Assembly: GCF_000243115.2 (NCBI RefSeq)
Contig: NZ_CP007035.1
Span: 310,001 to 374,000, forward strand
Source of the DNA: Niabella soli DSM 19437
GTDB lineage: Bacteria; Bacteroidota; Bacteroidia; Chitinophagales; Chitinophagaceae
DNA: 64,000 nt
Reading direction: 5' to 3'
Part shown: piece after piece, positions 1 to 8,257 of the stretch
Layout of the letters: each line of letters opens with the position of its first letter
Numbering within the stretch: position 1 is the first letter of the stretch
Made by a program: the position numbers and the translations under genes
Notes under the pieces: generated by a model
What the model saw: the letters and a program-made list of their open reading frames with translations, nothing else
Database searches by the model: none
What the model was told of the DNA's origin: nothing

Positions 1-1930
1 AAGCAATTCACAACCGGTGGTGCCGGTCTTATTGGTGGTACCATGTTGTCAAAGACCAAAGTTAATTCGAAAATTGAAAGCAATTCACAACTTCTCAGCC
101 TTGGCTTCCCGGATTTCCTTTGTTGTCAAAGACCAAAGTTAATTCGAAAATTGAAAGCAATTCACAACGGTTGACATGGCTAAGTGTTTGACTCCTTTGT
201 TGTCAAAGACCAAAGTTAATTCGAAAATTGAAAGCAATTCACAACCACAGAGTATAAATCTGTTCCTTCGAGTACGTTGTCAAAGACCAAAGTTAATTCG
301 AAAATTGAAAGCAATTCACAACTTTATTAGTTCGTTATCGTCAATTTTGTTGTTGTCAAAGACCAAAGTTAATTCGAAAATTGAAAGCAATTCACAACTA
401 CTGAGTATAAGTCTGTTCCTTCAAGTACGTTGTCAAAGACCAAAGTTAATTCGAAAATTGAAAGCAATTCACAACGTGCTGCATAGCTGGCCGGGTTACC
501 CATCGTTGTCAAAGACCAAAGTTAATTCGAAAATTGAAAGCAATTCACAACGCAGCCTTCGGAATCATGAACGGGTTAACGTTGTCAAAGACCAAAGTTA
601 ATTCGAAAATTGAAAGCAATTCACAACGCCGCCGCCCGCCGGACCACTTCATTCGGTGTTGTCAAAGACCAAAGTTAATTCGAAAATTGAAAGCAATTCA
701 CAACAGAGTCAACGAAGGTGCCGTCATCGATGTAGTTGTCAAAGACCAAAGTTAATTCGAAAATTGAAAGCAATTCACAACAAGCGGCTTTAAATTTTGC
801 AAGAGATTTTTGTTGTCAAAGACCAAAGTTAATTCGAAAATTGAAAGCAATTCACAACTGTCTGTATGTAATGCAACCACTTTTTCTGTTGTCAAAGACC
901 AAAGTTAATTCGAAAATTGAAAGCAATTCACAACTGAAGGCTCTTTATGTTCAGCACGGCAGCGGTTGTCAAAGACCAAAGTTAATTCGAAAATTGAAAG
1001 CAATTCACAACAAAGTTGATGCGGCTCCTGTGGCTCACTCTGTTGTCAAAGACCAAAGTTAATTCGAAAATTGAAAGCAATTCACAACAGGCAGACAAAA
1101 GGGATAATATACGGCAACGTTGTCAAAGACCAAAGTTAATTCGAAAATTGAAAGCAATTCACAACAGAGAAGGATAAGGTTACTCGTGCCACGGTTGTCA
1201 AAGACCAAAGTTAATTCGAAAATTGAAAGCAATTCACAACCGCCCCGGCCGATATGGCATCAAAGGTTGTGTTGTCAAAGACCAAAGTTAATTCGAAAAT
1301 TGAAAGCAATTCACAACTCTTATGTTAACATCTATTCTATTCCTCCAGTTGTCAAAGACCAAAGTTAATTCGAAAATTGAAAGCAATTCACAACTGAAAT
1401 GATTCAATAGCATCCGCTTCGGCTGTTGTCAAAGACCAAAGTTAATTCGAAAATTGAAAGCAATTCACAACGGATACGAGTAATATAGTTCCTGGTACGC
1501 TGTTGTCAAAGACCAAAGTTAATTCGAAAATTGAAAGCAATTCACAACTGAATTGCAGGAGTTGTTGGACAAGCGTGCGTTGTCAAAGACCAAAGTTAAT
1601 TCGAAAATTGAAAGCAATTCACAACATACCGTTTTACTTCCTTGTTTTCGGTAAGGTTGTCAAAGACCAAAGTTAATTCGAAAATTGAAAGCAATTCACA
1701 ACCTAAATGATCCAGACACTACATAAGAACTAGTTGTCAAAGACCAAAGTTAATTCGAAAATTGAAAGCAATTCACAACCTAAATGATCCAGACACTACA
1801 TAAGAACTAGTTGTCAAAGACCAAAGTTAATTCGAAAATTGAAAGCAATTCACAACTAGCTGTCGTGAGCATGGTGTTATTATGGGTGTTGTCAAAGACC
1901 AAAGTTAATTCGAAAATTGAAAGCAATTCA
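1..1930 (-). CRISPR. CRISPR array, probable type II-C, 25 spacers visible
   Basis: The array has a 47-bp repeat. On the plus strand it begins GTTGTCAAAGACC and ends GCAATTCACAAC, and its ends form the short inverted repeat GTTGT/ACAAC. The left edge cuts one repeat (1-14). Twenty-four full repeats start at 45, 122, 199, 276, 352, 429, 505, 581, 658, 735, 812, 888, 965, 1042, 1119, 1194, 1271, 1348, 1425, 1502, 1579, 1656, 1733 and 1810. The last one (1888-1930) keeps only 43 bases. Spacers are 28-31 bp, mostly 30. Repeat length and the reverse-strand start (GTTGTGAATTGCTTTC) resemble Cas9-associated type II-C repeats of Bacteroidetes, which suggests crRNAs are read on the minus strand. No cas gene is in the window; cas genes would be expected left of position 1. 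The array is certain, the subtype is inferred. Confidence 0.97.
57..64 (-). promoter_or_regulatory. Repeat-internal -7 promoter element (first complete copy)
   Basis: On the minus strand each repeat contains TAACTTTG, an exact match to the Bacteroidetes -7 consensus TAnnTTTG. A TTG lies 23 nt upstream in the same repeat, at the outer limit of the 17-23 nt spacing described for Flavobacterium. The element sits 12-19 bases after each plus-strand repeat start, so it recurs 25 times. Transcription would begin in the last bases of the repeat and run into the spacer, as in Neisseria and Campylobacter type II-C arrays. Confidence 0.5.
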
Positions 1931-2540
1931 GATGCCCGATTCGTATTTCTCAGGGAAAGTAAAAAATTCGATGTTGTAGTTTTTACGGAACGTAACGCCT
2001 ATTACCAGACCGAACGTTGGTCTATGGAACTAAACAGACTTCTGTCGTAGTGGCTGATTTTGAAAACGGGATTCCATTTGGTACAATTTCCGACACCCTC
2101 AATATGTTTTCGCGAGTCGCTGACTTATACCACATAAATGGTATCCATAAAAAAACGAAAACGTACGGATAGAATGCTTTAGTCTCTTGTCGATTCGTTA
2201 CTACGATTTCATAAAATAAGGGTGCAGACCCAGCCACACCCTTTAAGCCTTTGGGATTGGGGAGGCCTAACCTCGCCGCTCCTGCCGCAAAGATAATGGA
2301 TTTTAAAAAGTGAAGGCGCAAACTATGTTGCGCCCTCTAAACATTTGCGATCGGGGAGGATAATTCTCGCCTGTCGTAACGCAAAGCTGCTTTTTTTTAT
2401 TTTTAGAAATATCTATTAAATGCATCGGATGATCCCGGAGGTAGACATATCCCATATTTGCCGCATTGCTGATGTTTTGATTAGGAAATCATAAATCTAC
2501 TATAAGTATCCCGGAAATTGAAATTTATAATTTTGATCCG
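1931..2540. other. Gene-free CRISPR flank
   Basis: This 610-bp stretch follows the truncated terminal repeat. From about 1931 to 2200 short open stretches appear on both strands, but none persists: two plus-strand frames are open in turn up to stops at 2048-2050 and about 2173, and the minus strand is open from 2321 to 2022. Such alternation suits a decayed gene or a structured RNA better than a real protein. Inverted pairs are visible, such as GTTTTCG near 2104 with CGAAAAC near 2155. The right part holds two tandem hairpin units described separately. No anti-repeat of a tracrRNA was recognised. The last 120 bp before the SDR stop show nothing. Confidence 0.5.
2218..2398 (+). ncRNA. Candidate structured RNA: two tandem hairpin units ending in a T run
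   Basis: Unit 1 (2218-2292) and unit 2 (2313-2386) are diverged copies about 95 bp apart. Each has a G/C hairpin (GGGTG 2220-2224 with CACCC 2237-2241; GGCGCAA 2315-2321 with TTGCGCC 2328-2334). Each then has a GGGGAGG-type inner hairpin (2259-2277; 2353-2371) closed by an outer pairing (CTTTG 2249-2253 with CAAAG 2288-2292; TTTGCG 2344-2349 with CGCAAA 2380-2385). Primary sequence differs while pairing is kept. A run of eight T follows unit 2 at 2391-2398, as in an intrinsic terminator. It could be a CRISPR-linked RNA, an unrelated sRNA, or a REP-like repeat pair; expression is not shown. Confidence 0.35.
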
Positions 2541-6661: not shown

Positions 6662-8257
6662 ATGAAACGACTTATTACCACAATCAGCTTTGGCTTATTC
6701 CTGGCGCTGGCTTTGTCAGTTTCTCCAAAAACGAATGCACAGCCGGGCATTGGGGTAAGCATTAACTTTCAGACCTTTTATGATCAATTGAGCCCTTATG
6801 GCGATTGGGTCGATTACCCGGACTACGGGTATGCCTGGCGCCCGCGGGTGGGGGGAGATTTTCGACCCTATGCCACTAACGGCCGCTGGGTGTATTCTGA
6901 TGAATACGACTGGATGTGGGCTTCTGATTACAATTGGGGCTGGGCTCCTTTCCACTATGGTCGTTGGTTCTATGATCCCTATTACGGGTGGATGTGGGTT
7001 CCCGGTTATGACTGGTCTCCCGCCTGGGTAGCCTGGCGCGGCGGCGGCGATTATTATGGATGGGCTCCCTTACGCCCGGGCATCAGCATCAGTATTGGCA
7101 TCGGGAATTATAACCCTCCCTATGACTACTGGACCTTTGCCCCCGGCAGGTATATGAACTCTCCTTATATAAGCCGCTATTATTATCCTTACCGCAACAA
7201 CACCACTATTATTAATCGCACTACCATTATTAATAATTATTATGGTGGCAGGGGCGGTAGAGGCGGCCGTGACGGATATTATACCAATGGCCCGCGCCGG
7301 GGCGATGTGGAACGGTATACCGGCCGTATCCAAAGCGTGCAGGTACGCAATGTGAATACTCCGGGACGTGCAACGGTGGGCCGCAATAGTGTTTCGATGT
7401 ACCGGCCGGCAGTGCAACGCGGGGGCGACAATACCCGGTTCTCCCCAAGATCGGTGCAGCAATATGATCGTTCCAATGCAGGAGTGGGACGGGGTAATAG
7501 CGGCAGGGGCGCCGGCAACCCGGCAACAAGTAATAACGGGTTTGGCAGAGGCAACGTGAACAACGGAAGAGACCAGCGGAACCAGCAAATGCAATCACAG
7601 CGCCAGCAACAAATGGATACGCGCAACCAGCAAATGCAACGGAACCAGCAGGCGCAACGCGGTCAGCAAATGCAATCACAACGCCAGCAACAAATGGATA
7701 TGCGCAACCAGCAAATGCAGCGGAACCAACAGGCGCAACGCGATCAGCAAATGCAATCGCAACGGCAGCAACAGATGGAGATGCGCAACCAGCAAATGCA
7801 GCGGAACCAACAGGCGCAACGCGATCAGCAAATGCAATCGCAACGGCAGCAACAGATGGAGATGCGCAACCAGCAAATGCAGCGGAACCAACAGGCGCAA
7901 CGTGATCAGCAAATGCAATCACAACGCCAGCAACAGATGGACGTGCGCAACCAGCAAATGCAGCGGAACCAACAGGTACAACGCGACCAGCAAATGCAGG
8001 CACAGCGGCAACAACAGATGGAGATGCGCAACCAGCAAATGCAGCGGAACCAACAAGCGCAACGCGATCAGCAAATGCAGGCCCAACGGCAGCAGCAAAT
8101 GCAACAACGCCAGCAACAGGCACAACAACGCCAGGAGGTGCAGCGTCAGCAACCACAGGTAGAAAGAAGTGCACCAGCGAGGTCAGACGCAGGCAGATCC
8201 GGTGGCAATGGCGGCCGGGGTGATGGACGCGGGGGCCGGAACGACGGAGGAAGATAA
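6662..8257 (+). CDS. DUF6600-like YXWGXW protein with Gln/Arg/Met repeat tail
   Basis: This 531-residue exported protein has a signal peptide (residues 1-26, ending TNAQ). Residues about 30-165 are rich in Tyr and Trp with repeated YxWxW motifs (YDWMWA, YNWGWA, YGWMWV, DYYGWA), as in DUF6600/YXWGXW-repeat proteins. A Gly/Asn/Arg-rich middle follows. Residues 321-482 are six perfect-length 27-residue repeats built from RNQQMQ-type hexads. The tail is Gly/Arg-rich. No enzyme motif is seen; a cell-envelope structural or RNA/polyanion-binding role is possible but unproven. The gene stands alone, with a terminator 35 bp downstream. Confidence 0.85.
   Translation: MKRLITTISFGLFLALALSVSPKTNAQPGIGVSINFQTFYDQLSPYGDWVDYPDYGYAWRPRVGGDFRPYATNGRWVYSDEYDWMWASDYNWGWAPFHYGRWFYDPYYGWMWVPGYDWSPAWVAWRGGGDYYGWAPLRPGISISIGIGNYNPPYDYWTFAPGRYMNSPYISRYYYPYRNNTTIINRTTIINNYYGGRGGRGGRDGYYTNGPRRGDVERYTGRIQSVQVRNVNTPGRATVGRNSVSMYRPAVQRGGDNTRFSPRSVQQYDRSNAGVGRGNSGRGAGNPATSNNGFGRGNVNNGRDQRNQQMQSQRQQQMDTRNQQMQRNQQAQRGQQMQSQRQQQMDMRNQQMQRNQQAQRDQQMQSQRQQQMEMRNQQMQRNQQAQRDQQMQSQRQQQMEMRNQQMQRNQQAQRDQQMQSQRQQQMDVRNQQMQRNQQVQRDQQMQAQRQQQMEMRNQQMQRNQQAQRDQQMQAQRQQQMQQRQQQAQQRQEVQRQQPQVERSAPARSDAGRSGGNGGRGDGRGGRNDGGR
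7622..8107. repeat. 81-bp in-frame tandem repeat, six copies
   Basis: Six consecutive 81-bp units encode 27 residues each, beginning RNQQMQRNQQ. A partial unit precedes them. Copies differ mainly at synonymous sites and at the last residue or two (DM, EM, DV, QQ). The length is a multiple of three, so copy loss or gain would keep the frame. The low complexity produces long false open frames on the opposite strand. Confidence 0.95.

Follow-up and report, generated by a model that had tools for sequence, protein, structure and literature searches.

How did two spacers that differ only at silent positions come to stand in one CRISPR array, and from which gene were they taken? This question is raised by the left end of the window, the stretch of 64,000 nucleotides analysed here, which covers positions 310001-374000 of the single 4.70 Mb contig of Niabella soli DSM 19437. 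The array spans 309047-311934 of the genome and has 38 repeats, each 47 nt long, with 37 spacers between them that range from 28 to 31 nt; 37 of the 38 repeats are identical to each other and the last has 3 mismatches. The features referred to below are as follows, in window coordinates.

1-1934, minus strand: right part of the array; the leader and the cas genes lie left of the window.
169-198, minus strand: spacer 15, with the plus-strand reading MAKCLTP.
199-245, 276-322, 352-398 and 429-475, minus strand: identical 47-mer repeats enclosing spacers 16 to 18.
246-275, minus strand (the predicted crRNA strand): spacer 16, with the open, unchanged readings VLEGTDLYSV (minus) and TEYKSVPSS (plus).
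323-351, minus strand: spacer 17 (29 nt), between the twins.
399-428, minus strand: spacer 18, twin of spacer 16 (26 of 30 bases), with the same readings.
1703-1732 and 1780-1809, minus strand: spacers 35 and 36, identical, an in-array duplication.
1857-1887, minus strand: spacer 37, the most leader-distal, whose plus-strand reading SCREHGVIMG fits the microvirus capsid motif EEHGxIxG.
1888-1934, minus strand: terminal degenerate repeat at the leader-distal end (3 mismatches).

Spacers 16 and 18 are both 30 nt long and stand in register, with mismatches at spacer positions 1, 4, 13 and 25. A sequence-only reading had reported this pair, with 26 of 30 bases in common, and had translated both members on the minus strand as VLEGTDLYSV with four synonymous third-position changes; both observations were confirmed from the sequence (minus frame 1, 4 of 4 changes). 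Plus frame 2 reads TEYKSVPSS in both twins and is synonymous too, since the third codon positions of the two strands can coincide. These are the only two of the six frames that are open and unchanged. The decapeptide VLEGTDLYSV does not fix the coding strand: the synonymy of the minus strand stood, but its role as the coding strand was not established, since the plus strand is equally synonymous and fits a microvirus capsid motif, the minus strand fits a portal-protein motif, and the sequence scores favour neither.

The resemblance of the twins is very unlikely to be accidental, the chance of at least 26 matches between random 30-mers being ~2e-12 per pair and ~1.6e-7 over the pairs of 278 spacers. 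Those 278 spacers come from 11 array loci in 10 genomes of the genus and are an incomplete set (L054, L058 and L060 kept 24, 26 and 19 spacers from 30, 28 and 21 repeats); the twins are the only similar but non-identical pair among them, the next best giving 16 matches over 20 aligned bases. No spacer is common to this array and the related arrays of the genus. When four random substitutions were simulated (200,000 trials), one or more open frames came through unchanged in 2.5% of the trials, two or more in 0.28%. There are 0 substitutions in 37 repeats against 4 in the 30 bases of the twins, and the identity of the 37 full repeats argues against an origin of the twins by decay of an in-array duplicate. 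The twins are best read as two independent acquisitions from the same coding site in a pair of relatives that had diverged, and this part of the earlier proposal is supported by the synonymous differences and the intact repeats.

The array is adjoined on its left by genes for Cas9 (1426 aa), a type II Cas1 and Cas2, which lie in one operon and scored above cut-off with TIGR01865, TIGR03639 and TIGR01573, and then by a HIRAN-domain gene. Neither csn2 nor cas4 was found between cas2 and the array among the ORFs of L009, the cas locus left of the window, and the system is therefore assigned to type II-C. The extra HIRAN gene (L009:13093-13944), which no NCBIfam model matched, has cas2 on one side and the leader on the other; relatives are present in L051 (partial, at a contig end) and L059 (in pieces), and no relative was found among the ORFs of seven other cas loci searched (L058 only in part). 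The order cas9-cas1-cas2-array, with no csn2 or cas4 seen, is common to the type II-C systems of other Bacteroidota (Flavobacterium columnare, Riemerella), which likewise have 30-nt spacers and crRNA read toward the leader; the 47-nt repeat of this genus and the HIRAN gene between cas2 and leader are unlike those systems. The PAM of the F. columnare type II-C system is given as NNNNNTAAA in PMC8092290.

An anti-repeat upstream of cas9 (L009:6596-6643) would pair with crRNAs from the minus strand, which is accordingly the predicted crRNA strand. Across nine arrays of the genus the 60-base left flank is conserved (0.79 mean pairwise identity) and the right flank is not (0.48), therefore the leader is placed on the left and spacers 1, 2 and 3 are the newest. 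It follows that spacer 16 is newer than spacer 18, with one spacer between them. Type II-C arrays are described in PMC8092290 as expressed toward their variable end, with the PAM end of the spacers facing the leader; PMC12080349 gives the same layout, each new spacer entering at the repeat that is transcribed last, with transcription toward the leader. Of the mismatches between the twins, those at positions 1 and 4 fall toward the PAM; given that all four changes are at the ten third positions, the chance that two of them fall in the four PAM-side bases is 13% (28/210), too high for two spacers to demonstrate the escape by silent mutation that the sequence-only reading offered as one reason. 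No common PAM was seen by eye from the conserved residues beside seven microvirus-like spacers.

The source of the twins was sought directly. Codon-degenerate patterns for VLEGTDLYSV and for YTEYKSVPSS had 0 matches in viral_contigs, and in genome_contigs the former had one chance match, in a cellular permease-like ORF, and no protospacer. No protospacer was found by blastn of the twins against phages and plasmids, and at up to 3 mismatches only the two spacers themselves matched in 294 genomes of the family. A plasmid origin was rejected at the sensitivity of blastn, the best match for spacer 18 being 21/23 bases (E 2). Spacer 16 had weak blastn matches to phage tRNA-Tyr (E 0.2 and above, one inside an annotated tRNA-Tyr); this candidate was ruled out, as the loop would carry ATA, not GTA, and the stem in spacer 18 would have a T-T mismatch. 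Searches of phage collections with the twins and the decapeptide having given no protospacer, the phage source put forward in the sequence-only reading is one that we infer.

On the plus strand the twins can be compared with the motif FGYxPRYAEYKxxPS of the microvirus (Microviridae) major capsid protein, with which they share T/A-E-Y-K-x-V-P-S and the third base of the preceding Tyr. The motif FGYxPRYAEYK was read in 69 of the 86 microvirus loci searched, and TEYKYVPSTV is present in two database capsids. By blastn, spacer 18 matched a microvirus capsid gene over 21/22 bases (E 0.2), on the sense strand and in the frame AEYKYVPST; for spacer 16 there was no capsid among the 20 matches listed of 31. 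A near-exact capsid protospacer was not found, the best being 21/22 bases, or 22/30 bases in L257. Unlike the capsids read, the twins combine S at motif position 5 with T at position 10, a pairing that occurs in none of them, and S and T at these positions are unfavourable in the capsid profile. Codon patterns for EYKSVPS (21 loci) and YTEYKSVP (7 loci) found no capsid, and the one locus matching RYTEYKxxPS with TCN serine is not a capsid by translation. The capsid profile (43 distinct sites) gave a score of 14.8 bits, the lowest family member scoring 18.5, and by plain alignment TEYKSVPSS scored 34 against a control maximum of 38. In the 294 family genomes the capsid family PF02305 had 1 weak match and 0 over the cut-off, and a search for relatives from one microvirus capsid gave 1 relative.

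That microviruses are genuine targets in the genus is borne out by other spacers. When 256 distinct spacers were compared with microvirus proteins, five scored above all 256 reversed controls and one more tied the control maximum; at lower cut-offs, real and control scores were close (10 vs 7 at 36 or above, 27 vs 21 at 34 or above). Two of the five are in G304 (replication protein PCGKC and capsid MxGxGIN), two in G022 (pilot protein NPNLVYG and capsid FWHxGRxF), and the fifth is spacer 37 of the present array (capsid EHGxIMG). By blastn, microviruses made up 21 of the 25 matches listed of 65 records for spacer 37, and 4 of 9 records for the G022 pilot-protein spacer. The MAKCLTP of spacer 15 resembles the first residues of microvirus replication proteins; the likeness is weak and not above control, and blastn found no microvirus among the 25 matches listed of 30 records. 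In a sister array, spacer 33 of L053 (identical to spacer 34) begins TACCGAGTAC, in the same register as the TAC(T)GAGTA of the twins, and may record another uptake, the third, from a TEY site; its 6 blastn records include no microvirus.

The explanation that we favour, with a probability of roughly 45%, is that the two spacers were acquired separately from a single coding site in two diverged relatives, with the host most likely resampling a capsid motif of small single-stranded DNA microviruses. The type II-C Cas1-Cas2, guided by the PAM, would have taken one capsid site twice, from a pair of microviruses with capsids identical there in protein and different in DNA. The sampled site would be PRY-(A/T/S)EYKxxPS, a motif near the C-terminus of the major capsid protein, with the plus strand coding. 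As a genome of 4-5 kb has few acceptable sites, the same one could be taken twice without priming: for 4 to 8 spacers, same-site resampling has a chance of 4 to 18% with 140 sites and 0.5 to 2.2% with 1250, both site numbers being assumed values. The earlier remark that priming is not expected of type II-C was too strong, possible II-C priming in F. columnare being reported in PMC8092290. Since half of the four silent differences lie toward the PAM, one spacer would cover the other virus poorly and both could be useful. Poor protection by spacer 18 against the virus of spacer 16 would be expected from Cas9 seed pairing. Capsid origin, resampling of a small genome and incomplete cross-protection are all features that we infer. 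A more specific version, which we consider unlikely, is that the genus is engaged in a continuing CRISPR-Cas9 arms race with microviruses and that one capsid site, fixed by the conserved EYK motif of the protein and a nearby PAM, is resampled whenever PAM-side silent changes restore infectivity, in which case the twins would be two dated records.

The same history could apply with a different target, namely another coding gene of double-stranded phages or plasmids, and this is a serious contender to which we give somewhat less than even odds. It would agree with the failure to find a protospacer in viral_contigs, phages, plasmids, genome_contigs or the 294 family genomes. It also agrees with single-spacer posteriors, which over the assumed priors were 63 to 94% for another gene, 6 to 35% for the capsid and 0.1 to 2.6% for the portal protein discussed below. 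It leaves unexplained, however, why both strands fall on conserved phage motifs, and same-site resampling is rarer in larger genomes.

The conserved motif that the minus strand fits is that of a portal protein, and an origin from its C-terminal GPEGTDLYSVW (phrog_33693, in Bacteroidota-type phages, minus strand coding) is improbable, even though 8 of the 21 loci found with the EYKSVPS pattern encode, on the opposite strand, a portal protein with GPEGTDLYS. The protein was assigned by PHROGs (phrog_33693, E 6.8e-91) and by the annotation of Nonlabens phage P12024L. The twins share with it EGTDLYSV, eight residues running (8 of 10 exact), and carry V-L where portals have G-P; the first residue is G in all 76 readable portal sites (5 of 81 loci having no readable motif) and V in the twins. 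The portal profile (26 sites) scored 13.9 bits, on a par with the capsid score, with 24.3 for the lowest family member. Rescoring with 51 capsid sites under four settings gave 13.3 to 14.1 for the capsid and 12.5 to 14.3 for the portal. In 20000 shuffles of the spacer, neither the capsid nor the portal profile score was attained, a result to be read in the light of both sites having been chosen after large searches. Sequence scores do not separate the capsid from the portal. By plain alignment VLEGTDLYSV scored 35, the highest control reaching 37, and among the other spacers of the genus none exceeded control when compared with the portal phages (0 at 36 or above, 2 for controls). The portal domain was found in none of the 294 family genomes, and with the profile there was 1 weak match of 294. 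The capsid is favoured because this array and two sister arrays hold clear microvirus spacers and the portal set gave none above control; the pair itself was weighed, by reasoning, toward a small genome, which adds to the preference.

Two paralogous gene copies in one virus or mobile element would make a single infection enough to supply both twins, which is very unlikely, as the microviruses and portal phages read have as a rule one motif copy per genome and orthologues under selection typically diverge in this way, at silent positions only. That the twins are an old in-array duplicate which has since mutated can be set aside as scarcely credible: arrays of the genus do contain exact duplicates (spacers 35 and 36 here, blocks in the sister arrays), but the 37 of 37 identical full repeats, the third-position nature of all four changes and a chance of ~0.008 (a mild count) for 4 changes being confined to the spacers rather than the neighbouring repeats argue against it. 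No intermediate copies, which would have supported it, were seen in the sister strains.

Several observations on the sister loci stand apart from the origin of the twins. An alternating pair is present three times in spacers 21-26 of L053, a ten-spacer block twice in L061 (15-24 and 25-34) and a five-spacer block twice in L062 (9-13 and 18-22). At least three Cas9 lineages, unrelated to one another, share a common adaptation module of near-identical Cas1, Cas2, leader and repeats among L009, L053, L054, L056, L060, L061 and L062. L053 and L054 have Cas1 proteins with 95.7% identity and repeats and leaders that are almost as alike, with Cas9s that are 27% identical over 333 residues; a third Cas9, in L061 and L056, is 70% alike between the two and about 25% to the other Cas9s. 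Judged from these comparisons, Cas9 seems to have been exchanged under a constant Cas1-Cas2-leader-repeat set, which is more unusual than the twin spacers and a side find of possibly greater weight. The Cas9 region of G298 (L056:7694-12264) consists of three separate ORFs (291, 757 and 326 aa), adjoined by a short 9-repeat array, and looks broken or badly sequenced. Elsewhere in the window, the ORF at 6662-8257 has a Y/W-rich head, after which Q/N/R/M-rich repeats (QxQMRNQQMQRNQQAQRDQQMQ) stand almost in tandem through a long tail.

Arrays are already known to acquire spacers against variants of a single site, and the twins are ordinary CRISPR biology with a useful detail. As in known cases of repeated protospacer sampling from related phages, two variants of the same site were taken in register; those cases have usually been shown with known phages, whereas here the event is read from the spacers alone. 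No literature on silent same-site twin spacers was found, which says little as the search needed several exact phrases, and none was found that joins Chitinophagaceae, Microviridae and CRISPR. Silent twin pairs are a clean, virus-free sign that spacers originate in protein-constrained coding DNA. As both strands of such a pair can be synonymous, identifying the gene from the peptide alone may mislead. Should the capsid reading be right, the Cas9 system of this host, from a genus for which no such report was found, would be recording single-stranded DNA phages.
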